Shown: in pieces, positions 15,901 to 64,000 of the stretch
Position numbering within the stretch: the first letter of the stretch is position 1
Layout of the letters: each line of letters starts with the position of its first letter
NCBI RefSeq assembly: GCF_000003815.2
Contig: NC_049979.1
Location: forward strand, 35,128,600-35,192,599
Length of the DNA: 64,000 nucleotides
DNA from: Branchiostoma floridae
Lineage: Eukaryota; Chordata; Leptocardii; Amphioxiformes; Branchiostomatidae
Direction of reading: 5' to 3'
Translations under genes and position numbers: made by a program
Notes under the pieces: generated by a model
Seen by the model: only the letters and a program-made list of their open reading frames with translations
What the model was told of the DNA's origin: nothing
The model's database searches: none

Positions 15901-18900
15901 TACTCCAGCCCTCAGAAGGCCAGGGTCAGATAGTCCTGTGACTTGTTGCCATCGGAATATCTGATCCGACTGAGAGGCATAAACAATTTTCAAATGGAAC
16001 CATAATTTTGTCATTATAATTATAATACATGTTAGGTGGCATGAAAACAATTCTGTCTGCCTATTAAAATGTGAAAAGAAAATGCAGCAGCCTCACATTT
16101 GCAAAATTTCCACCATAAATCAGTGGATTAGGGGACCTTTTATCCCCTGTAGAATCAGGTTTATAGGTTATAAGTGTGGAGAGGAGTACACACTTATTAT
16201 GTTGTTTTACGTTCCCTTCTCTGGAATGTCCCATGGCCAGTAGGTGTTAGGCAGTGTGACGTGTTGGAGGGACGCACGCCGTGGTGTGTTACGGGCTCGC
16301 TCTACAGGAATCTCCCATGGCCAATAGGTATTGGGTAGTGTGACATGGGGGAGGGCCGCACGCAGTGGTATGTTATGGGCTCCCTGTACAGGAATCTCCC
16401 ATGGCCAATAGGTGTTAGGCAGTGTGACATGGGGGAGGGATGCACACCGTGGTGTGTTACGTGCTCCCTCTATAGGAATCTCCCATGGCCAGTAGGTGTT
16501 AGGCATTGTGACATGGGGAAGGGACGCACGCCGTGGTATGTTACGGGCTCCCTGTACAGGAATCTCCCATGGCCAATACATGAAGGTGTTAGGTGGTGTG
16601 ACAAGGGGGAGGGACACACGCCGTGGTGTGTTACGGGCTCCCTGTACAGGAATCTCCCATGGCCAATAGGTGTTAGGCATTGTGACATGGGGGAGGGACG
16701 CGTGCCGTGATGTGTTATGTGTTTCCTCGCCTGGAATTTCCCATGGCCAGTAGGTGTTAGGTGGTGTGACACGGGGGAGGGACGCACGCCGTGATATGTT
16801 ACGGGCTCCCTGTACAGGAATCTCCCATGGCCAATAGGTATTGGGTAGTGTGAGGGGGAGGGGCTCACGCCATTGTGTGTTATGTGTTCCCTCATTGGTA
16901 ATCTCCCATGGCCAGTAGGTGTTAGGTGGTGTGATATGGGGGAGGGACACACGCCGTGGTGTGTAACGGGCTCCCTGTACAGGAATCTCCCATGGCCAGT
17001 AGGTGTTAGGCAGTGTGACATGGGGGAGGGGCGCATGCCGTGGTGTGTTATGTGTTCCCTCGCCTGGCATCTCCCATGGCCAGTAAGTGTTAGGCAGTGT
17101 GACATGGGGAAGGGACGCATGCCGTGGTGTGTTACGGGCTCCCTCGCCTGGCATCTCCCATGGCCAGTAGGTGTTAGGTGGTGTGACATGGGGGAGGGGC
17201 TCACGCTGTGGTGTGTTATGTGTTCCCTCGCCTGGCCTCTCCCATGGCCAGTAGGTGTTAGGTGGTGTGACGCGGGGTAGGGACGCACGCCGTGATATGT
17301 TACGGGCTCCCTGTACAGGAATCTCCCATGGCCAGTAGGTGTTGGGCAGTGAGACATGGGGGAGGGACACACGCCATGTTGTGTTATGTGTTCCATCTCT
17401 GGACACATCCGAAGGGCAATAGCCAGGAGGAGATGTCAGGAAGGCAATATGAGCTTCAGAATCTGTGACATTCTGATTTCTCACACCTTGATCAGCAGGC
17501 TGGGATACCAAAGCTGTCCTCAGCTGTCTACAGGCTCTTATACCTTCGACCTCCGTCGCCTTTCTATAGAAGATGTTAGGCTGGACTTTGGTCTGTTCAG
17601 CCAATCCATATGTGGCAATGGATCTTCCAGATTGGTGTCTACTGAAAGTGGTGGTGCTATCCCGGGTGGCCAGACGATTCTGTCCTCTGTTTCTAACAAC
17701 GTGGAACGAAAAGTCTGCAGCATCAGCATAGAAAGGCATGGGTCGGCTCTCATCTGGGATCTCACTGTAGGTTTGGGGTGGGGCAGGCAGAGTGCTAGAC
17801 TGGGCTTTCGCCTGTTCAGCCGATCCATACGTGACACCGTTTTCTCGGATTGCCCTTCGATCCTGTCTCCGGTTTCTGACGACATGAAGCGAAAACTCAG
17901 CATCAGCATAGAAAGGCATGGGTCCGCTCTCATCATCTGGGATCTCACTGTAGGTATGTAGGCGGGTAGGCAGAGGGCGCTGTGCAGCGGTTTCGTGATC
18001 TGGGATCTCACATGATGTGCGCGGGAGAGCAGGCAGGGGTCGCTGTGCAGCGGCTATGTGATCTGGGATCCCACTGTAGGTGGGCTCGATGGACTGGAGG
18101 ACGGCTGGCAATGACCTACAGGATGCCGCATCATCTGGGGCGCCCCGGTCTGTGCATGTTACAACAGGGAGGGAAGCTGACCTTACCACGCCAGATATGG
18201 CATCATCTGGAATCTCCCAGTATGTGTGAGGGAGACAAGGCAGGGGCCTCTGAGCAGTGGCGATATCATCTGGGATCTCGCTGTAAGTAGGCTCAATGGA
18301 ATCCAGGACAGCGGGCAATGACCTACAGGAGACCGCGTCAACCGGCGCCATCTTGCTTGGGCGTGCAGGGAGGGAAGCCGACCTCAGCAAGCCAGGGAAG
18401 GCAACGCCAGGTGGGATTGTCCAGATGTGTGCATCGTCGCCGGTCCCCTCATCCCCAGCGTTAGACTTTGGTGTGCACACCTTCCATGCCAACACTACAA
18501 GGAGCACTATGACCAGACTGACCACTGCCGAGACAACAACTGAGATGAGAACACCATCTGTTGCTGTAGGCACGTCTGATCCAGGTGTGTTACCCACCTG
18601 CAGTGTGCTGTTGTCTCCCGGTTCTGAAGATGTGTAGTCGTTTTCTGTATGGAATTGTTCAGAATAGTGTGGCGGTTTGGTGGAGCGATCAGTAGTTTTA
18701 AAGTGAGTGGTTGATGTAGTGGGTGTCTTGCATTTGACTGGGGGCATGGTGAAGGACAACACCGCGTGTTCATCTTTGGTGAGCAGAATGCAGGTGATGT
18801 TCTTTGTATTGTCATTGGGGTCGTTTGTGGGGGTGGTGTGCATTTGGCTGCATCTGGTCTCTGTGGTGGTGAGTGTGTTTGTGTTGTGTGTCTGGACAAA

Positions 18901-21900
18901 TGTCATGGCAACACCTTCATAGCTTGCATTCCCTGTGGCCATGGAAACCAGCCGGACGATTGGGCTTCCCACCAGGCCCACTGATACAGTAATACCCACA
19001 TGGTACTCCCAAACCTGCCTGCATTGCTCAAGCGTGTTGGGGACCAGTTTGTCTGCCAGAGAGCCGGCAGTAGCCAGGACAACAGCAGGGGTCTGGATGG
19101 AGATCAGGCTCAGAGAACCATCCAAAGCACCGCATGATATGCCAGGGTTGACACGTCCCAACTCGATGTTACCAGGGACGTTGCTCGATGAATCAAACAT
19201 CCACCCAAACAAAAGTTCATAAGCCATGAACCTGGCACAGAAGAGGAACTTGGGCACCTCAACAACCATCGTTGACCCCCTGAACCAATTGGCCATCCGA
19301 TGTAGGCTCCACAACATTCCATGTGGTCTTCCATCATGGACAGATGCCAACATGCCACTGCTGACATGGAGCCTTAACAGCGAAGACTGTCCTCCCAAAA
19401 CATCTCCATCCAAGCATGACAGATCATTACCCATCAGGTCTAACCAGGTCAGCTCTATGTGTTGGAATGACCCTGGGGAAATGCTGTTGATTTCATTCAA
19501 CCCCAGGTTCATGGTCATTCTACCTTTCAGCCCAAAAAGCCAGGAAGGGTCTACAACCTGTAACAGGTTGTTCATTAGAGACAAGACATGCAGGCGTGTC
19601 AGGTGCACAAAGCTCCCAGGCTCTATCTGCCTTATGTGGTTGTTGGATAGCATCAGACTCAAGAGGTTCTCCAAGCCAGTGAACCAGGTCTGTTTGACCT
19701 TTGTAAGCCTGTTAGAATCTAGGGACAACTGGTAGAGATGGGAAAACCCAGCAAAGGTGTTGTTCTCTACCTCAGTGATCTCTGCATCTATCAGACCCAA
19801 AGTGTCGACCACAGACTGATTGAGCAATGTCAGGCTCTTTGGTGACAGGACATGGAATGGGTACCCTCGTATTGCAACACTTCTGGCCCTAGCAAGGAGA
19901 GGAAATGGACTTCCAGAAGCAGCCGCCTCCTTCATGACCTCACACATGACACACTTATTTGTGTTATACCCCGTGAACGCTGATCCCAGCTTGTTGCTGT
20001 AAGGCACACACTTAAACCATCCCGCTGTCTTACACAGAACACGCGGGCCATTTGACTCCACACAGGCAGATGCAAAGAGAAGCAAGAACAAGATGGCAGC
20101 GTTCTGCTTCCTACCACCCCTTAAATGCATTCTGATCATTCTATTCCAATCGTTTCATCCGAGAAAACATCTGTCACTTACCTAACTGCGGTTTGTGTAC
20201 TTGGCCCCTCAGATCCCTAAGCACCTGAACAGCTGATTGCTTCTTTCGTCTGTTCTAACGACGATTGTCGGTACCTAACAAGCTTTGCGCCTGTAGGTAC
20301 ACTGCGTTTATTTTAACTAGACTTATTAAGTCTTTGTGTTAGGTTCATGCATTTATCAAACATTGGGATTGACGTATTAGAGGGTTATTGAAAAGAGTTG
20401 CGCAGAACCACATGTTTCCTGATATTCAGACTAATCTCATGAAGTAGCCTATGAATAGTAAAATAATAAAGGTTGCTGAACTTGTACTGTATGTCTTGTT
20501 GATTCACAGTAAAAATTGCACAAAAGTGCTACACGACCTAATCTCAGTGGTGAGGAAGTTTTAAAATTACAGCATCTTACATAAAATTGGACTACAATAC
20601 CTGTAACACATGTGACTCCTTGCAGGTGGAAAATTAACATATACCAATTAGAAAAATTAGGGCATGATTTGCATATTAATTGATAAAAAAATTCATCAGT
20701 TCTAATTAAATGATTTCTTGCTGTTTATACTTAGAGTTGCCATTTTGAATTACATTTTATTACTTAACGGTGTTCCGACTGGTCCGTATTTTACGGTACG
20801 GCTCCGGGCTCCAAAGGTTGATTTGAACTATTCAAACTTACTTGAGTGTGCCGCCGTCAAAAATTTGAACAACTGTTTCATTCCTTTGCCCAGTTCTGTT
20901 GTTCAAATTGACAAAGTTGTTGATGTGATGTGTTATTACAGTAGTTGATATCAAGTCATTTCCCCCTTTTTTTGCGATAAACTTGAGTTATCTCGGGTTG
21001 GCAAGATATAAATAAAACAAAACTTGGGGTATTCCGCATCGCCCTTGGTCCCGGCCCTCCCACGGATTGTACCTCAGGTGATACAGAATACCCAGTGTAC
21101 TCTGTATTTAATACTATTGATAATAGCCATTATCATCGATAATAACGTCAAGTTTTAATGTATTTGTCCAGCTGGTGGGTCGCTACCTTACAGCATCAAT
21201 ACTGCCAGGAAGCAGCCATACCTGAACAAGTTCCTGCAGTAAGTCCTTCTGCTGATGTGTTGAGTTTCCAAAGCAGTCCTCGTCGTCGGACGAACAACAC
21301 AGAGTTTCCTTACAGAGCTGAAAGTTTGTTTCATGTGCACTGCAGTAGCAAAGTGGGCCCAGCATATTTTTTGAAAGACAGTGGGAAATTTTCGCACTTA
21401 CAATACTGTACTGTACTTAATTTTTTTTTTACAAAATTATGCTAAGCCTTACTGTGTTGAACAAAGCTTACATGTAGCTCTGTACCATATCAACTACCAA
21501 ACAGAAAACCCACACATTTTTCTTATTTTTAATGAGGCCTTAGAAGTAAGATTGTAATCATGATGTTGATGTTGATGACTGGCTTCTTACTAAATAACAG
21601 TGCCCTCTAGCAGCCACAAGGCAGAATTGCATGTGTGGCGCATATATAGGAAGTGAGCTACATGTAGATGTTACTGTTATATGTTCTCTATATCTTAGAT
21701 GATAAGAGTGAGTTTATGTTAACATTCTCTATGTTCCACTAGCCAGTGGAGTGCCAGTGCCCGAGGTAGGACTAGAGCTTCCCCACACATCAAAACCTAC
21801 ACCAGAACATCTCCTGACTACAGCAGACTGGCCTGGTTCCTGGTTACCAGGTAACAGTACAATTATTACCTGTGCCAAGGAGGTGATCTATTGAGTAGCA

Positions 21901-25152: not shown

Positions 25153-25407
25153 TTACATACAGAGTACCAGTACATACGGAGTACCAGTACACACAGAGTA
25201 CCAGTACATACAGAGTACCAGTACATACAGAGTACCAGTACATACAGAGTACCAGTACATACAGAGTACCAGTACATACAGAGTACCAGTACATACAGAG
25301 TACCAGTACATACAGACTACCAGTACACACAGAGTACCAGTACACACAGAGTACCAGTACATACAGAGTACCAGTACATACAGAGTACCAGTACATACAG
25401 AGTACCA
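25153..25407 (+). repeat. 17-bp minisatellite, left block
   Basis: About fifteen units of CAGAGTACCAGTACATA with occasional substitutions. All six frames are open, so the TEYQYIQSTS-type and VLVLCMYWYS-type open frames here are artefacts. The same repeat resumes at 31860, on the far side of the 6.45-kb insertion. Confidence 0.95.
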
Positions 25408-31859: not shown

Positions 31860-31920
31860 CAGTACATACAGAGTACCAGTACATACAGAGTACCAGTACA
31901 TACAAAGTACTAGTACACAT
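31860..31920 (+). repeat. 17-bp minisatellite, right block
   Basis: About three and a half units of the same CAGAGTACCAGTACATA repeat as at 25153-25407, resuming exactly at the right inverted-repeat end of the insertion. Confidence 0.9.
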
Positions 31921-37768: not shown

Positions 37769-38790
37769 CTAGTTTGTGTTGCAGGATTTAATTTGTCTTA
37801 CAGTTAATAGAGAGTTCACCCGTGTGGTACTTAAAAAAGGTGACGAGTCTGGCCTTCCGTCGCCTTTCCTGGAGTGATGGCCACTCGAGGTCGTGGAGCA
37901 TTTCGCTGACACTAGAAGTCTGGCGGTACCTATTGCACACCCAACGGGCGGCACGACGCTGGACCGCTTCGAGCTTCTGGATATCCTTTGCTGTATAGGG
38001 ATCCCAAACAGGACTGGCAAATTCTAATAACGGTCGAACTAGTGTAATATAAGCAAGATTTTTGATCTTTTTAGATCTTTTTAGATCTTACCTTAAGATT
38101 TCTTCTCAGAAAACCTAGTGTTTTGCTGGCCTTGTTTGAAATGTTACCAATGTGGGTACTCCAACTGAGATTGTAGGTAAGTGTAACTCCTAGGTACTTG
38201 GCCTCCTTGGGAGAGTCTAGGGTGTGACCATGAAGTTTATAGCTAGTTGTCAGGGGGACTCTCTTCCTTGTAAAGTGTAACGCATGACACTTATCTGGGT
38301 GAAAGCTCATCAACCAGGTTCGTTCCCACACGTCCAGGCGATCCAGGTCTTCCTGGAGTAACTCTTGGTCCCTAGTCGAGCAGATGGTCTTATGCGCCAT
38401 AGTGTCATCTGCGAATAGTCGAGCAATGGAGGACAAGCTGGTGGGAAGATCATTTATATATAACAGAAACAGGGTTGGGCCTAAAACAGACCCCTGCGGT
38501 ACTCCTGATTCCACTGACACAAAACTTGAAGTTGAGCCTTCCACTACTACCGCTTGCCGGCGATCAGTGAGGAAACTCTGAATCCAGGTCTGCAGCGCCC
38601 CTGTGATGCCGTAGCAGTTTAACTTATGGATGAGGAGGGAGTGGCAAACTTTATCAAATTCCTTGCTGAAGTCCATAAGTCCAGTGTTACTGGGGGTGAA
38701 CAAAAGACAAATTAAGCCTGAGAGATAATGGACTGGGTGTTTAGTCGTGTGGCTTGGCAGCATTTTTTTTGCAAGATTTGTCTTTTTTGC
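37769..38790 (-). mobile_element. LINE (CR1/jockey-type) reverse transcriptase, broken
   Basis: On the minus strand 38763-38071 encodes most of an RT domain: MDFSKEFDKVCHSLL, ESGVPQGSVLGPTLFLLYIN, the palm motif FADDT, and HPDKCHALHFTR. The protein continues in another frame from about 38060 to 37800 with LAYITLVRPLLEFASPVWDP and VQRRAARWVCNRY. The frame is broken where AGATCTAAAA is tandemly duplicated (38070-38090). The endonuclease half is absent, as in a typical 5'-truncated insertion. The motif style is that of CR1/jockey-group non-LTR elements. It is inactive. Confidence 0.88.
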
Positions 38791-39015
38791 CTTCGCGCAT
38801 TATAGTTTTGGGGTCTCCAGAGGATGTCACATAAAATTAAGTCGGTCTCATAATGACATTATGTGATAAAGAAAACCATAGCCAATAATTAAATTGGACT
38901 TTGTAACTTTTAGACATGACTAAGAGGGGTCTACCTAACACAAGTGTCAATCCAATATTACTTTAGGTTGCACTTCAGAACCAGGTTGTTCACTTTAACG
39001 ATTTATGATTCCATA
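38791..39015. other. Short spacer, nothing recognised
   Basis: Non-coding sequence between the LINE remnant and the duplicated collagen exon fragment. Confidence 0.4.
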
Positions 39016-40608: not shown

Positions 40609-42609
40609 TCAGAGGTACTGCTCATCATCTGAGCTTAAGTAATAATATCTTAACAAATCCTGTAGTTCCCTCTCCTTCTCCACTTTTGCTAGCTGGTCCC
40701 TGCAGTACCATCCAACATGAATTTTCTTGGTTGCCAGGAATCCGTGGCCAAACAGAGCAAAAGGAAGGGTCAGTTTGGTGTGTTCGTTTACAACGTATAA
40801 GCTTCTTGTCTGACCTGCACGGCGCAGTTTGTAGTTTTTTCTTGACATGGTGTTGATGATACCCTTCTGTCCATTGACATAGCGCTTGCGTCTCCTGCAT
40901 ACTCTATCAACTATGTGAAGCTCCTCTTTGACATCTTGTGTGTTTAGCTTCTCCTCTTCAATTGATGGTGTTTCCTTGTCAACATCGTAGGTGTAGACCT
41001 CCCCATAGCAATACATATCAACACAGAAATGAACCTTGTTGTTAACGGCTGTCACTCTAAAGTCCACATCAAAATCCCTGGCTCGTGCAGACCTGCTGGC
41101 AGAATTCCAACGTTGAGTTTTAACATCTAAGGCATGGACGCTGAATCTTTTCTTCTTTCTGAGTCCCTGAATGAGCACAAGCTTACCCCCGCATCCTATC
41201 ACTGTCAAGTTGGGTGACGGGATGATTGCAGGCACTTTAGGAGGCTGTATCCAAGCTTCTGCTTCAATATCGAAACACTCCATACTGAGCATATTGAACA
41301 ACGTCGCCGTAGTGTCGCCTCCAACCAGGAAGAGCTTTCCATCAACAATGGCGGACCCGTGCCCCGCCCTACCGCGAGGCAAGTCAGGTAACCTCGTCCA
41401 AGTGTCTGTAGCGAAATTGTACCGAAAGGCTTGTTTGGATGGAATGTTGCTGCCACCAGGGTCTGGGTGAAGTAAAGACGAGGTGCGCCCTCCCGTCACG
41501 TACAAGTATCGTCCTGCACTTGCCACACTCATGCATCCAACGATGGGTGTCGGAAGGTCGGTGACATGGTAGCATTGCTCACGAACTGGATCCATACAAA
41601 TTATGCTTTGGAAAGGCATCGGTGGTGTTGGATTTTTGCTGTAACGTTCTTGAGTGACCGCCTTCCAACCGCCCACAATAATTGCCAGGTCGTCTGAAAT
41701 CCCACACCTACTAGTAGGTCTTCTTCCATCTTCCTCTCTTCCTGTGTCTGCCATCAGCCGAGGTGACCCACTTAGATGTTCCTCCTTTGCAGCTGTGACT
41801 TTGGCAAGACATTCGGGTGAATCCTGTATCGCCGGGTGGACTTCAAACTTCTTTAGCACACTGACCCTTACACGTGATAAGCAAATCACTGGCAGAATTC
41901 CGGATACCTCAGCCTTGCGGCTTTCTGGTTCATGATCGAGCCATTGTATCACAGAAAGGAGGATATCGTCTTCACTCTCAACTCTCAATTCCTTGTCGCC
42001 GAGTAGATCCAAGAGCTGCTGAGTTGAAAGGCTCAGAAACTCCTCACTTCGTCCAACCACCGAGAACTTAGACATCACCATGCATCTTGCTGTAGTTTTC
42101 AAACTACACAAGCCATACATGTCAGCAAGGCACATGACACCCACACAGTTAGAAGCACAAAGGTTGTTTTCAATGAACTTTTCGCAGTACTCTAGGACTT
42201 CCTCAGCTTGCAGCATGTGCGCTGCCTGCAGAATGTCTTGAACGTCGTCTTTAGCCATCAAGATTTCTCCCGTGTACACAAAGTCCAGAATCTTGGAAAA
42301 GCTGCCAGAGTCAATATCGTGTAGTGTTATTACCTTCGCCTTGCTTTCCGCAAGGTTGGACGAAAACATGGTGTGAAAGTATGGTGTGACTGCCAACACA
42401 GCCCGGTGACAAGGGAACTCCCTGCCTTCTACCTTCACCACCACGTCCACAAACTCACCACTCTTCCGCTGTCTGATGAGTTCAGCACATAGGTCGTAAC
42501 TTTTGTCTTTATTTCCAAAGGTACAGGAACCATCCTCATGCCAGTCATGGTACTGTTCAGAATGTTTGCCACGGATTTCACGATCACAGTTGTCACTATA
42601 GTCCGACAT
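40609..42609 (-). CDS. BTB-BACK-kelch protein (KLHL type), intronless
   Basis: Proteins of this type are usually substrate adaptors of cullin-3 E3 ubiquitin ligases. The frame encodes 666 residues from the ATG at 42609-42607 (MSDYSDNCDREI). The frame is open for 19 more codons upstream, but these begin with TTG, so I do not use them; an upstream spliced exon remains possible. A BTB domain spans about residues 40-145 (FVDVVVKVEGREFPCHRAVL, FVYTGEI), a BACK domain about 150-255 (YGLCSLKTTARCMVMSKFSV), then kelch-type repeats from about 305 to 560 (AIIVGGWKAV, YLYVTGGRTSS, LPDLPRGRAGHGSAIVDGKL, FLVGGD). A basic C-terminal tail (RRRKRYVNGQKG to DDEQYL) follows. It has no introns. The exact KLHL orthologue is not recognised. 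Confidence 0.9.
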   Translation of the reverse strand: MSDYSDNCDREIRGKHSEQYHDWHEDGSCTFGNKDKSYDLCAELIRQRKSGEFVDVVVKVEGREFPCHRAVLAVTPYFHTMFSSNLAESKAKVITLHDIDSGSFSKILDFVYTGEILMAKDDVQDILQAAHMLQAEEVLEYCEKFIENNLCASNCVGVMCLADMYGLCSLKTTARCMVMSKFSVVGRSEEFLSLSTQQLLDLLGDKELRVESEDDILLSVIQWLDHEPESRKAEVSGILPVICLSRVRVSVLKKFEVHPAIQDSPECLAKVTAAKEEHLSGSPRLMADTGREEDGRRPTSRCGISDDLAIIVGGWKAVTQERYSKNPTPPMPFQSIICMDPVREQCYHVTDLPTPIVGCMSVASAGRYLYVTGGRTSSLLHPDPGGSNIPSKQAFRYNFATDTWTRLPDLPRGRAGHGSAIVDGKLFLVGGDTTATLFNMLSMECFDIEAEAWIQPPKVPAIIPSPNLTVIGCGGKLVLIQGLRKKKRFSVHALDVKTQRWNSASRSARARDFDVDFRVTAVNNKVHFCVDMYCYGEVYTYDVDKETPSIEEEKLNTQDVKEELHIVDRVCRRRKRYVNGQKGIINTMSRKNYKLRRAGQTRSLYVVNEHTKLTLPFALFGHGFLATKKIHVGWYCRDQLAKVEKERELQDLLRYYYLSSDDEQYL

Positions 42610-43623
42610 CCTTTGAGTTGCTGTTGTGTCAGGATCTATATAACATAAAGTTCTTCCATTGGGCAAATAGCAGCTATGACCGAGTCTGAATTGTGCATCT
42701 GATTCCTGAGTAGATCTGAAAGTTGTAATGCTACAATAATACTAGTAGTACGGCACAGTTGGTATGGGAGATGCTATAATCACAGCTTGACTTTGCACTG
42801 GTGTTTTTTCTTCTATCATCATCAGATGCTGGATTTGTATGGGGCATTGAGCATCAAACTGCTCCCTCAAATTGCTTGTCAGTGAGTCAACTGTAACAGA
42901 GTGGGAGACAAAGGAAGTCAAAATGTGTGGAACTTGTATGCCAGTAATTACCACTATTATCTATAATTCAGTATACATATTATGTTTGCTTTTTAGATCA
43001 GTCTGTGTTCCCATGTTGTGGTCTCATCATGATGTAGTTAGCCTTGTAACTAATATAATAGTACCATCCTACAACTGCTAATAGGCAATTTTCGTCTTTA
43101 GCAATGCATTTGTCAACAGAAGAGGAAGCATTTGAGAGTAAATTTTCATAGTTTGAATTTTGATTCTTGAGCTTATGACACTTTTTTTTATCCTCCCCTT
43201 TCCAATAGGACTAAATGCATTACTAATGGTATATACTGGAACTGTGAGGCTGCCCTGTCACCATGCATGTGCCTCTGCCCTTTTCAATAAACGCGACTAA
43301 AATGCACTTATACATGTATCTCCAAATGTTTAACAAATAAACAAGATGGCCCCATGTGACGTCAGATCCAACTTGGCGGCGCCCTTGAACGCCAATGAAA
43401 ACAATACAGGTTTTGCCACCGCAAACTTGTAAACATAAGAACACTGTAAGGAGTTTTATAATTGTGCTGGCGCCTCTAGGCTGGCTGATGCAGGGGCCTG
43501 TGCCTGCAGCAAAGCATGTGCCCCCCTCCCCACAAATTATATAAAACTAGCTACTTTACTCGCGGTTATTTCTCTAAACACGGCGCTCGATCAGTAAACC
43601 CAGCCGTCCCCGTAGCTCGGTAC
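42610..43623. other. Upstream of kelch gene; no second gene seen
   Basis: Should hold the kelch promoter. If the EXOSC2-like exon belongs to a real gene, this is its first intron, but I found no later EXOSC2 exon here. Confidence 0.4.
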
Positions 43624-45324: not shown

Positions 45325-48300
45325 ATGGCAACTATTTTAGTCCCTGGAGCCTCTCTGAAGAACAAGAACTTTCTCGGAGCTATACAGCAAGCAGGCAGTG
45401 CCACAATGTACCCATTGCCAGCCGAGCCGGCCCGTTTCGTGACGGGAAAGTCGCTGTCCAGCACTCCGGTGGACGAACTGAGCCGCAGGATTCGACAGCT
45501 CTGCGACACAGACCCCAGGGTCCTACTTACCATGGCGAAGATGGAGGAAGACGATCGGAAGTCTTGGGTACGGCTGGCCCACTTCATGATTCTTCTGGCC
45601 AATGAACAGCACCAGGAACCAAATGGCGCGGATCGTTTTGTTGGATGGACGACGGCGTGGCCAAAGTTCAACTTTGTTTTGTGCGCACTTACCGTTCTTA
45701 ATCTGGCCATATTTTACGGACTTTCTACCGGCAAGTACGGTGTATCGTTAACTACCGCTAGGTTAGTTCTTCTGAATAATTTCATTTCTGTGTTTCTATG
45801 GTCAAAAGTTTCGGCCATTATGCCCATACTTGTCATGCAATAGGGAATATCTTTGACCGTATTTGCCACTCAAGACTCCCTTTGCTTGAGTCCAAGCTAT
45901 CTCATATTATTAGTATAGTATAGTAATCGTAGTACAAGAATTTCTGAGGGCTTTCCGACAAAACGTTCATGTATGTATTATATATATATATATATATTAA
46001 CGAAGCAAGGTACATGATGGTGGATATAAATTCCTTAACCTCTCCCTAATGTTATCGCCAGGGAAGGTTCGGCATGGTACATGTGAGCCCATACACTGGC
46101 ATGCGCTATACATGGATATTAGCTGTTAGAGTAACGGTACATCAATTTCTACTGCATCATGTGAGACGCATTGTTATTGAACCCTGAGAAACTGAACGTG
46201 TACATTGTCTATTAAGTCTCCCCAAGAAGGAAGACCTTCTTAATCTGTAGCCGTTTCCGGCTTCTTCCGAATTTAGCCAATCAAAACTTAGATTTGGAAA
46301 TGACGTAATGAACACTGCTCTATATCGTCTGGTACATAGCATCTTCGCCCCCCTTATTACTCTGACACTGGAGGGTAACCTCCAATAACAGAGTATTGTA
46401 ATCACTTTGTGCGTTGGGTGTTCATTTCTTATATAGTATACGATACATTATGACAATATATAACTCACTATAAATACTCAAGGTTTAGACTGTACAACAA
46501 TTACACAATGGAGTGTGTTTTTTTTACTCGGACCTTCACAGTCCGACATGTGATGTACAGCCGCAAAACGGCGCCCGCTTAAACATTATCTTCACAAAAG
46601 GCCATGGGGAAGACTTTACATTTTCGCGAAAATGTTGCCTTTCTAGTAATTGATAAATGATTACCTCGTCTCATGAAGGTTTGGCTTTCGACACCATTTC
46701 GAACTAATGTAAGGAAAACTGATATGTCGAAAATTTTTCGATGATTCCACAGTGCCTTGTACAAATTGTTTTATTTCACTACTTGGCAGTTTGCGGCGTA
46801 ATCATATGGTATTCTCAGATGGATAGATGAATAAAGCTCAATCTATCACGACTTTCACCCCAGGTACCATTCAAGGTCCCCCAGGCCCACCTGGTCGCCT
46901 CGGCCCGCCTGGTCCCCTCGGCCCGCCTGGTCCCGGCGGCCCGCCTGGTCCCCCTGGTAGAGACGGACGGGATGGACTAGCTGGGCAGCCCGGAGTAGAT
47001 GGACGGCCTGGGGTGTACGGAGTTCCAGGGAACCAAGGTCCAGTCGGTCCCGTAGGACCAGCTGGCTTGCGGGTATGTCGTCGAGCCTTCCCTTTTATTT
47101 CAGATATTTGTTTCGCTATATATTATCTTCAGAAATAACAAAGATTTTTAATCTTATCACAGGGACCCTCTGGAGACAAAGGTGCGCCAGGAATAGACCG
47201 TTCAGGTAACTTCTTATTGTTACCCGTGGATTTGATATCCGAAACAAAAATCTTTTTTTTCAGTTCAGGGGGGGGGGAGCCGTTGTGGGCGTACTTACCG
47301 TTCTTTAACTTGTAAGTTTGATCCTATTTGATCCGTTAGGTAGCGTTACGTTAACAGTGGAGCGTTAAAGTTAATATTTCCGATACGTTTGATGGATCCA
47401 GAGCCAGAGGTTCGTCGTTTGTGTGCGTATGGTCACAACGTTGGGACATTATGTTCATACATAATTCTTTTCATGAAATTAAAATTCTTTTTAATAAATA
47501 TTCTGTCCACAGAGACCTCTGTCTATGTCCGCTGGGGGAAGAAAACGTGTCCGACCGATCTCGGGACAGAGCAGATTTATTCCGGTATTATGTTTCCTTG
47601 GTTTAACAAGCAGCAAAAGCTACAAGGTTTCCAAAAAGCAAATAAGCGTTTATGGTCCTATAGACTTCAGAACTTTGTAAAACAGGCGTCAGCACTACAA
47701 CGTGTATACCATGCTCTGATTGTTGATGTGATGACAATTTATTGTCGAACATTTGCACTCTCTTGAACATAAGGGACTCTGCTATCAAAAAGACATGACA
47801 ATCTGCGCTTATGCTCCTTGTAATCGGAACAATGTGAACCAGGTGACAACAATACACGAGCATTTCATGCTCTTATTTTTAAACAGTAAACGTACATGAA
47901 CACTTTCCCGAATGCTCTTTATAGTCATTTCCTCTAGACGCAAGCTGTCTGGTAGAAGTGCATGGGAAAGTTGAAGAGTAACAAAGAATTAGAATAAACA
48001 ATCATCTTAGATGATTGGTATGGAAGCTGAGTTTAGATAACTACATGAATGATCAAGTGTTTTATACCATTCAGGAACGGCTGGAGGTTCATGGTTCAAT
48101 GACAAAGGCGGCGGCGCCAATTACCAGTGTCTGCCCCCCGACCCACAGTGGGGAAAGTATCAAGATGGAACCCAAGGGTGGAGAGCTTTCATGCACGGAG
48201 CGGAGTACAAGTTGGACACAAACGTCCCGTTCGGCTCCACCTCCCTTCACAATAACGACGTCCCGTGTGCGGTCTGTCACGTCCCAACCCGCGGCAGTAA

Positions 48301-48556
48301 GTTGATGATCCCCGCCCGTAACACCTGCCCCGCCGGCTGGACCCGGGAGTACCATGGCTACCTTATGAGTGAGAATTTCAAACACTCCAGTGCTAAAGAG
48401 TTCGTCTGTGTAGATGAACAGCCTGACGTGATACATGGCGGACATGCCGACCAGAACGGAGCGATATTCTGCCCTGTGGAAGCTCGCTGCGGGTCCCTGC
48501 CGTGTCCCAACTACGTGGAAGGGAGGGAGCTTACCTGTGTCGTCTGTACCAAATAG
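45325..48556 (+). CDS. Short-chain collagen (spongin/C4-like), probable type II membrane form
   Basis: Proposed exons are 45325 to about 45739, 46864-47072, 47163-47205, 47513-47584 and 48075-48556, all in phase, giving about 406 residues. Exon 1 encodes a hydrophilic N-terminus, then a membrane span at about 114-134 ([20 protein letters not shown]) without a signal peptide, so the N-terminus is probably cytoplasmic. Exons 2-3 encode about 27 Gly-X-Y triplets ([19 protein letters not shown]). Exons 4-5 encode the Cys-rich C-terminal domain of sponge-type short-chain collagens ([64 protein letters not shown]). The exon 1 donor (TACG then GTGTAT) is weak, so the link of exon 1 to the rest is the least certain part, supported by matching phase. 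Function is probably extracellular matrix or cell-matrix attachment. Confidence 0.82.
45978..45996. repeat. (TA)n microsatellite
   Basis: A pure TA tract in the proposed first intron of the collagen gene. Confidence 0.9.
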
Positions 48557-61804: not shown

Positions 61805-64000
61805 CTAAGTCTGATAGGTTTCCATTAAGTCCAAGGTAAATTCAGATTCTATATAACAAACTAGTTTCTCCATGGCAAGAACCTCAGAGGCGGGACGTTG
61901 CAGGGCATGTTCTGACTTTCTGGCATTCTTTGAGGACTCATTTGTGGCCTTAGTCCCACCATACCCTGTTTGTTCAAAGCCATTGACTGTGGCATTAGCT
62001 GTCAAGCATTACTGAAAACTGAGGGGGTTGAGGGAAAATTCTGGGTCTCCTTTTAGTTTTACACCAGATTGTGAGAATTATGGCACCAATGAAGACAATA
62101 CCAGCTACTGCACCACACACGGAGCCAATGAGAACAGGGAGAGACAAGCTGGGAGCAGATTGAGGTTGTTTTGAGGGTTCAGAAGCAGACAGAAAAGGTG
62201 TGGAGAAAGTGGGAGTAGGGCCATGGTGAGTAGAACTGCTTTGTGGTAGTTTTGAGGGTACAGAAGCAGACAGAAAAGGTGTGGAGAAAGTGGGAGTAGG
62301 GCCATGGTGAGTAGAACTGCTTTGTGGTAGTTTTGAGGGTACAGAAGCAGACAGAAAAGGTGTGGAGAAAGTGGGAGTAGGGCCATGGTGAGTAGAACTG
62401 CTTTGTGGTAGTTTTGAGGGTACAGAAGCAGACAGAAAAGGTGTGGAGAAAGTGGGAGTAGGGCCATGGTGAGTAGAACTGCTTTGTGGTAGTTTTGAGG
62501 GTACAGAAGCAGACAGAAAAGGTGTGGAGAAAGTGGGAGTAGGGCCATGGTTAGTAGAAATGCTTTGTGGTAGTTTTGAGGGTTCAGAAGTAGACAGAAA
62601 AGGTGTAGAGAAAGTGGGAGTAGAGCCATGGTGACTAGAACTGCTTTGTGGTTGTTTTGAGGGCACAGAAGTAGACAGAAAAGATGTAGAGAAAGTTGGA
62701 GTAGGGCCATGGTGAGTAGAACTGCTTTGTGGTTGTTTTGAGGGTTCAGAAGCAGACAGAAAAGGTGTAGAGAAAGTAGGAGTAGAGCCATGGTGAGTAG
62801 AACTGCTTTGTGGTTGTTTTGAGGGTTCAGAAGCAGACAGAAAAGGTGTGGAGAAAGTGGGAGTAGGGCCATGGTGAGTAGAACTGCTCTCTAGTTTGCT
62901 AAAGGTGCCAGTCACAGCAAGAGGGGGAGTTACTGTTGACACTCTATCAGTTGTGGTGTCTTTCAGTTGGACTCTTACAACTAGTGTGGCAGATCTAGAT
63001 CCAACATAACTTGTTGCTATACAGATGTGCAGACCAGCATCTGCTGCGGTGACCGTTCACCTCCACAGTCACCCTCCCAACCGACTCAACAGTTGCATTC
63101 TGTCCAGATGGGGGAATGAGTGTAATGCCTGGTGTGGGGATTCCTGAAGCTTCACAGATCAAATGTAGAGTCTCCCCCTCTACCACCGTGTTGTTATAAA
63201 CCCTTTCAAACCTCAGTATGGTTGGCTCTTCACAGACGAGATTTTCAGGACTGATGTCTTTGAGTTTTTGTCCGTGGAAGTTGCTCGGCTCTTCACACGT
63301 GATTTGGTTTTCAAATGAATAAGAGCCATTCATCTTTTGCTTGAAGGGACGCATCCTACAGTCACACTGCCAGGGATTGTTGCTAATGTCTATGTCCAAA
63401 AGTGATGACAGTTTTGCAAATATCTCTGCTTTTAAGACTGTAAGTCTATTGTCCTTCAAAGACAAATATTCCAGTTGTGGTGTTGAATCAAAAGTTCCAA
63501 ACAGGATGTCACTGATCTCATTATTGTGTAAGCTAAGGCCTTGTAAGTTTCTCAGCCTTGTAAACATGTCAGATCTTAGGCTTGTTATCTTGTTATGGTT
63601 CAGGGACAATTCTATCAGTTGTGATGTTGAATTGAGAGCTTCAGCCTGAATGTCACTGATCTCATTGTTGTATAACTGAAGTTCCTGCAAGTTTCCCAGT
63701 CCTGTGAACATGCCAGATCTGAGGCTTGTTAATTTGTTATGATGCAGGTATCAGAATCTCAGTTGTGAGATGGTACTGAAAGATCCAGACTGAATGTCAC
63801 TGATCTCATTATTGTGTAGGTAAATCGTCACCAAGTTTCCTAGCCCTGTGAACATGTCAGATTCGAGTTGTTTCAACTTGTTCTGAAACAGCCACAAATT
63901 TCTCAACTGTGGTGTTGAATTAAACGTTCCAGCCTGTACGTCATTGATGTCGTTATTGTAGAGATAAAGGGTCTCCAAGTTTCCCAGTCCTGTGAACATA
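61805..64000 (-). pseudogene. LRR-Ig transmembrane receptor, 3' part, with disrupted frame
   Basis: Minus strand, entering from beyond the window. About five LRRs (LRNLQGLSLHNNEISDI type) lead to an LRR C-terminal cap (NPWQCDCRMRPFKQ) and an Ig domain (VEGETLHLICEASGIPTPGI; VTAADAGLHICIATSYVGS). Then come a Ser/Thr/Pro stalk of nine 27-residue repeats (62157-62886), a membrane span (VLIGSVCGAVAGIVFIGAII at about 62130-62060) and a short basic tail. Lesions: an in-frame TGA at 63749-63751 inside an LRR, where a Leu codon is expected, and a +1 frame change at about 63053 inside the Ig domain between VTVEVNG and VTAADAG. A further frame change near 62005 may truncate the tail, since a 66-codon frame (TANATVNGFEQTGYGG) continues to 61805. 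It is either a pseudogene or a gene with sequence errors. Similar receptors are numerous in amphioxus. Confidence 0.7.
62157..62886 (-). repeat. 81-bp coding minisatellite (9 units)
   Basis: Nine head-to-tail 81-bp units encode SSSTHHGPTPTFSTPFLSA then SEPSKQPQ or SVPSKLPQ. The membrane-proximal units are almost identical in DNA sequence, so they expanded or were homogenised recently. Rich in Ser, Thr and Pro, the stalk is probably O-glycosylated like mucin. Confidence 0.93.

Follow-up and report, generated by a model that had tools for sequence, protein, structure and literature searches.

A fourteen-unit YWPW repeat closes the cytoplasmic tail of an amphioxus LRR receptor: a tentative multi-tyrosine docking strip with a likely ancestor in the same protein

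Tyrosine motif arrays and coding repeats in signalling proteins have both been described, and the following statements are taken from passages of the papers cited. In p130Cas the sequence RPLPSPP binds the SH3 domain of Src and thereby recruits the kinase to phosphorylate the substrate domain, which contains fifteen YxxP motifs, ten of them phosphorylated efficiently by Src (PMC2956669). This substrate domain is disordered, with variable positions between the conserved tyrosine motifs (PMC3983058), and the SH2 domain of Src itself binds pYEEI (PMC7337045). In amphioxus, the LRR receptor BbLcLRR is phosphorylated by Lck at three tyrosines including HDY655SEV and binds SHIP1 in Jurkat cells after stimulation (PMC8211107). 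The exon 3 VNTR of the dopamine D4 receptor is a coding minisatellite that contains SH3 ligand motifs (PMC3877354).

The receptor presented here is encoded on the minus strand of a 64,000-nucleotide stretch of amphioxus DNA, called the window below. Its open reading frame of 1,315 codons (16207–20154, first ATG at 20139, stop codon at 16207–16209) shows no interruption and is apparently a single coding exon; by eye only, a hydrophobic, signal-like stretch follows the first ATG. The Pfam scan of the whole ORF returned six families at E values up to 1, and only LRR_8 passed its cut-off (98.8 bits against 27, E 1.5e-28). The PDB matches listed, 60 of 259, belonged to the LRR proteins, with IGFALS, LRRC15 and TLR3 among them. 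The ectodomain is followed by one transmembrane segment of 23 residues (18484–18552, Kyte-Doolittle peak 3.23), a lysine and a long soluble tail. Among the other maxima listed, the highest value (1.65) belongs to two windows in the ectodomain, and the tail never exceeds 0.93; with an LRR ectodomain and a single transmembrane peak, the protein has the layout of an extracellular-LRR single-pass receptor. The tail comprises approximately 758 residues with the repeat units at its end. It contains 26 tyrosines, 11 upstream of the array and 15 in the array region, whereas the sequence-only reading had counted about twenty regularly spaced ones; regular spacing applies to only 14. RNA families and tRNAs were searched for and none were found.

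The array of 14 units occupies 16222–17400 on the minus strand, and the protein ends directly after unit 14 with EKGT and the stop codon (16207–16221, from the ORF). Tandem Repeats Finder describes it as 84 bp in 13.8 copies with a score of 1474, thus it is not a chance arrangement. The majority unit consists of a linker of eight residues, the sequence RRASLPHVT and an 11-residue core around YWPW. Twelve units are 28 amino acids long, unit 7 (16816–16896) has 27 and unit 10 (16558–16647) has 30. The earlier description of an LRR receptor tail that closes in fourteen in-frame units of about 28 residues is therefore correct, but the 11-residue core that it called invariant is found exactly in only five of the 14 units, or in eight if the first residue may be L, P or M. 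What is shared by all units is YWPW (14/14), with PNTYWPW present in 13; the closing EIP occurs in nine, the other five reading EMP (twice), ERP, EIT and DIP. At the DNA level the units are 73–94% identical to each other in pairwise comparison. Identity was 0.866, 0.856 and 0.863 at lags of 2, 4 and 6 units versus 0.829, 0.830 and 0.826 at lags of 1, 3 and 5, which hints at a period of two units. In kind, the distal tail is a coding minisatellite. It had also been argued that every length change keeps the frame and that this speaks for selection. The observation is right, but since 12 of the 14 units have the standard length and the two deviating ones would both be in frame by chance in one of nine cases, the argument is weak. 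Further frames of the array are open over 123–321 codons (16339–17435); this is expected of an 84-bp repeat, so that open frames alone are no evidence.

Compared with the known systems, the tail resembles p130Cas/BCAR1, as far as the cited passages describe it, which has fifteen tyrosine motifs separated by variable stretches within a disordered, proline-rich strip and, in the same protein, an RPLPxxP ligand for the Src SH3 domain. In contrast to the receptor tail studied here, p130Cas is a soluble adaptor with SH3 and CCH domains, and its motif is YxxP, bound by Crk and Nck, whereas our array is built on YWPW, contains no YxxP and consists of units that are still 73–94% identical in DNA. No SH3 or Cas-family domain was found by Pfam in the whole receptor ORF, which places it outside the p130Cas family. 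BbLcLRR shares the LRR ectodomain, the transmembrane segment and a tail tyrosine, HDYSEV, that is close to HTYSEI here. It differs, in a comparison by published description only, in its length of 699 amino acids, its LRRCT and WSC domains and its three mapped tyrosines, and no repeat array is mentioned in the passages cited. The dopamine D4 receptor repeat is likewise a coding minisatellite with SH3 ligand motifs, and the cytoplasmic region of the receptor that it encodes is disordered, but its units measure 48 bp. It is located in a GPCR loop and is not known to have a comparable tyrosine core. The inhibitory ITIM/ITSM receptors have the pattern Yxx[ILV] in common with five proximal sites here, but the tail contains neither a strict [ILVS]xYxx[ILV] nor a TxYxx[VI].

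In the literature searched, the strings YWPWEIP, TYWPW, YSEIPD and TYSEIP are absent, tandem 14-3-3 sites in receptors did not appear, and, in the passages retrieved, the occurrences of EIPDD are apparently unrelated and coding-region tandem repeats or minisatellites of amphioxus are represented by globin work only. A pattern search for relatives gave no match in a collection of viral contigs and 24 matches in bacterial and archaeal contigs, none of which was confirmed by tblastn; both collections are uninformative for amphioxus. With a 168-residue piece of the upstream tail as query, all matches were at chance level (best E 0.28).

The motif classes tested agree with the earlier statement that the array fits no ITIM, ITAM or YxxP pattern. 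Strict ITIM motifs and YxxP number zero both upstream and in the array. The array also contains no Yxx[ILV], with I, L and V as the +3 residues tested, and it is not an ITAM because an ITAM needs two Yxx[LI]. Upstream of the array Yxx[ILV] occurs five times, a number reached in 43 of 2000 shuffles. The two scaffold types suggested besides SH2 are unlikely: a WW scaffold finds no PPxY in the array (one is located upstream), and a clathrin-adaptor scaffold finds no YxxPhi site, judged by the lack of Yxx[ILV]. A multivalent SH2-type scaffold would be plausible, although Yx[ED]I is likewise absent from the array.

Such sites are found in the proximal tail, which contains six T[YS]xxIP modules. Five of these have the tyrosine and four of the five read Yx[ED]I (equalled in none of 2000 residue shuffles), while one module reads YSGI. 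The first tyrosine module, 20 residues long, was located by motif scan at 18265–18324 (all positions here are on the minus strand), and two more with a 16-residue motif were located at 17932–17991 and 17749–17808. RPLPCLP (18229–18249), a class I SH3-type sequence by motif only, directly adjoins TYWEIPDD, so that an RPLPxxP-type ligand and a Yx[ED]I tyrosine stand side by side in the proximal tail. The second SH3-type motif, RPLPALP (18022–18042, also by motif only), adjoins TSCEIPDH. We infer the SH3 and SH2 assignments from these patterns. RSASLP, which fits the 14-3-3 mode I pattern RSxSxP by motif, occurs at 18367–18384 and again at 18166–18183. Neither RPLPxLP nor RSxSxP figures in the sequence-only reading. 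Two RPLPxLP were equalled in none of 2000 shuffles and two or more RSxSxP were found in one of 2000; these counts ignore that some of the copies duplicate each other. The modules ending in TYSGIPDH and TSCEIPDH (17995–18117) are a duplicate of the block at 18202–18324, with a dN/dS of 0.14 over 42 codons (Sd 16.0/31.0, Nd 11.0/95.0). A second pair of duplicated blocks gave 0.23, also over 42 codons (Sd 13.5/29.2, Nd 14.5/96.8), and these two values indicate that the proximal tail is under purifying selection. The TSCEIPDH module (18001–18018) has lost its tyrosine although the surrounding block is constrained.

The search for the origin of the repeat led to one segment of this proximal tail. 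Read in the register core, linker, SLP, the 28-residue unit matches throughout a single contiguous segment of 26 residues (78 bp, 18157–18234, minus strand), identified by protein and DNA segment alignment against shuffled tails and referred to as the founder. It includes the second RSASLP copy. The parts follow in the same order and the linker has eight residues in both, but the unit has two extra codons, which the aligner places between Y and W (YW to YWPW). The founder scored 66 at the protein level versus at most 41 in 300 shuffled tails, and 45 at the DNA level versus at most 28.5 in codon-shuffled tails (0/200). The consensus for this comparison was made from 12 of 13 rotated units; the unit carrying the FM insertion was excluded, as was unit 14, which lacks a complete linker after it. 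Read off the alignment, founder and consensus share 15 of the 18 motif residues and none of the eight linker residues. A common linker sequence was thus rejected, the agreement being in length only. Outside the core, gaps put the DNA alignment of founder and array out of frame (53 of 68 aligned bases).

The core itself was traced to the module CTCCCTCACACATAC-TGGGAGATTCCA (LPHTYWEIP), which matches the array core DNA at 24 of 27 bases apart from a gap of six bases. Its score of 29 compares with 13–18 at the other five modules and was reached by none of 500 codon shuffles of the tail. This module is the best local match for all 14 single units; the matches of single units to the tail DNA are mostly weak, with three of 14 above all 200 codon shuffles and the worst equalled by 59 of 200. 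When the whole upstream tail was compared with a profile built from the 14 units, the score was not significant for the full sequence (-2.3 bits, as high in 540 of 566 reported shuffles), while the best domain of 5.3 bits was reached by none of the 566 reported (1000 shuffles); this test has been superseded by that of the founder segment. The proposal that the unit arose from an upstream tyrosine motif has thus held up, with the HTYWEIPDD module and the RSASLPVVT after it as the source. The PTYSEIPDD module, tried as a source, scored far lower. The alignments support amplification of the unit from a single contiguous stretch upstream, with two codons inserted. An insertion in the array would fit better than a deletion upstream because the other proximal modules also are without the two codons. 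Synonymous differences (pS) are 0.21 between array units versus 0.46–0.52 between the duplicated proximal blocks, and since the value is lower the array is probably younger than these blocks.

Differences between the units are distributed unevenly. PNTYWPW has four variable nucleotide columns; each is a third position, and each is synonymous. First and second positions vary in none of 14 columns there versus 21 of 34 in residues 1–17 (Fisher 5e-5), while third positions vary alike (4/7 and 8/17). This block of seven codons was chosen after seeing the data; under permutation of codon columns, any run of seven codons without a non-synonymous difference has a probability of 0.00015. For the 11 codons named in advance by the sequence-only reading, 4 of 22 first and second positions are variable (p 0.002). 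Pairwise pN/pS was 0.16 for this 11-codon core and 1.47 for the linker (residues 1–8). It was 1.36 for the serine motif (residues 9–17), which was therefore rejected as a constrained part of the array. In a codon model, omega = 1 was rejected for the core (2dlnL 17.5) but not for the linker (2dlnL 1.78) or the whole unit (2dlnL 2.25). The model compares log-likelihoods only, with omega = 1 taken over nine kappa values on one fixed unit tree, and this tree is approximate because the units may have recombined.

For the whole unit, dN/dS is 0.63–0.67, with 0.66 in the coding frame versus 0.63, 0.67, 0.72, 1.11 and 1.38 in the other five (13 of 14 units, without unit 7). The bootstrap over codon columns gave 0.36–1.26 for the whole unit, 0.82–4.19 for residues 1–17 and 0.02–0.44 for the 11-codon core. 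We thus rejected the whole-unit ratio, the test that the sequence-only reading had itself proposed, as proof of selection: it is inseparable from 1 and no lower than in three unused frames. The earlier claim of selection on the array is supported for the core and for the core only. The comparison between units supports that the core is under selection and that the linkers are free to change.

Several other features were observed in the window. A second LRR gene is located at 61995–63999 on the minus strand (LRR_8 93.7 bits; weak Ig_3 and LRRCT below cut-off). The next ORF, which we assume to be part of the same gene, carries an in-frame repeat of 81 bp in 9.0 copies with 95% match (PSKLPQSSSTHHGPTPTFSTPFLSASV-like), located just before a segment that is hydrophobic by eye. 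A BTB-BACK-Kelch protein is encoded in one frame of 710 codons at 40609–42741, and a reverse transcriptase fragment (RVT_1, 38071–38799) is probably part of a LINE-type element, both on the minus strand. A 17-bp tandem repeat of the TACATACAGAGTACCAG type occurs twice (25154–25407 with 14.9 copies, 31860–31917 with 3.4). On the plus strand, an 18-bp repeat (46875–46953) would read Gly-Pro-Leu-Gly-Pro-Pro; 1.1 kb further on follows an ORF (48053–48556) that contains cysteines and has no Pfam match, an arrangement like that of short-chain collagens.

The array might also be explained without a role of tyrosine phosphorylation. With a tyrosine and two tryptophans in each unit and arginine-rich linkers, it could cluster receptors by cation-pi and stacking interactions. 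The array is indeed rich in aromatic residues, arginine and proline (3.8% Tyr, 7.6% Trp, 8.3% Arg, 17.9% Pro), its net charge (RK minus DE) is +8 versus -9 in the proximal tail, YWPW is kept in every unit, and linkers may drift as spacers do. However, plain stickers need no constraint on the P, N and T before the tyrosine, and the tyrosine of YWPW is replaced by phenylalanine in none of the 14 units; thus we regard this explanation as unlikely. It might also be possible that YWPW is a linear motif for one folded partner, such as a trafficking or cytoskeletal adaptor, that binds independently of phosphorylation and gains avidity from 14 copies. The constrained PNTYWPW spans both sides of the tyrosine, which is more like the ligand of a peptide groove than that of an SH2 domain. 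The descent from a YxEI tyrosine module speaks against it, no PDB chain resembled a profile of four array units at E values up to 1, and we know of no linear motif that matches PNTYWPW, so that we consider it rather unlikely.

Two further explanations concern the serine motif and the repeat as such. RSxSxP has been described as a 14-3-3 motif (in the passages cited of PMC6770128), and the tail could be a strip of phosphorylated RxxSxP sites bound by 14-3-3 dimers. The two upstream RSASLP fit this pattern, RxxSxP is kept in eight of the 14 array units, and the motif was retained between founder and array. Against this, the serine is present in only ten of 14 units and the nine codons of the motif are unconstrained, which makes such a strip improbable. 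Just as improbable is a neutral minisatellite, in which an 84-bp repeat would have expanded and simply be tolerated where the disordered tail ends. A unit length divisible by three keeps the frame for free, the whole-unit ratio is like that of three other frames, omega = 1 was not rejected for whole unit and linker, and the second LRR gene of the window bears another such array. Yet PNTYWPW varies at third positions only, and omega = 1 is rejected for the core.

The reading that we prefer, with a probability of roughly 0.4, is that the proximal tail carries docking motifs of the Src-family type and that the distal array serves as a docking strip with many tyrosines, p130Cas-like in layout but with a different motif. 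One proximal stretch of 78 bp, which encodes the Src-type tyrosine motif LPHTYWEIP together with the basic serine motif RSASLPVVT, would have gained the two codons that turned YW into YWPW and would then have been amplified to 14 copies. The proximal modules, in which an RPLPxLP ligand of the SH3 type stands beside a YWEI ligand of the SH2 type with further YSEI sites, would bind a Lck-type kinase of the Src family, which would phosphorylate the flexible array. Each phosphorylated YWPW could recruit the same SH2-type effector, and engagement of the receptor would then bring about a high local concentration of one partner. The similarity of RPLPxLP to RPLPSPP and of Y[SW]EI to pYEEI, together with an amphioxus LRR receptor phosphorylated by Lck, makes kinase docking at the proximal tail possible, with the array as substrate strip. 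Yx[ED]I is no longer present in the array, so that the protein reading it need not be the kinase itself; its +3 position holds a tryptophan. Among the observations against the docking strip, the constraint on the core includes the P-N-T before the tyrosine, which is unusual for an SH2 ligand, and the RPLPALP copy is located beside a module without tyrosine. The loss of Yx[ED]I, the whole-unit ratio, the choice of the seven codons after seeing the data, the weak matches of single units to the founder module and the modules reading YSGI and TSCEIPDH also count against it. To our knowledge, YWPW has no precedent as an SH2 ligand. It is conceivable, though rather doubtful, that the insertion of two codons which turned YWEI into YWPWEI in a Src-type SH2 motif created a new recognition motif, P-N-T-Y-W-P-W, which was amplified 14-fold. 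A multivalent signalling code, read by a protein of its own, would then have arisen recently and in a traceable way.

Arrays of tyrosine motifs, as in p130Cas, and coding minisatellites in receptors, as in DRD4, are each known, and the present tail combines the two. The protein still contains what is probably the ancestor of the repeat, and seven constrained residues stand out against drifting linkers. Taken together, these features open the origin of a multivalent docking strip to testing.
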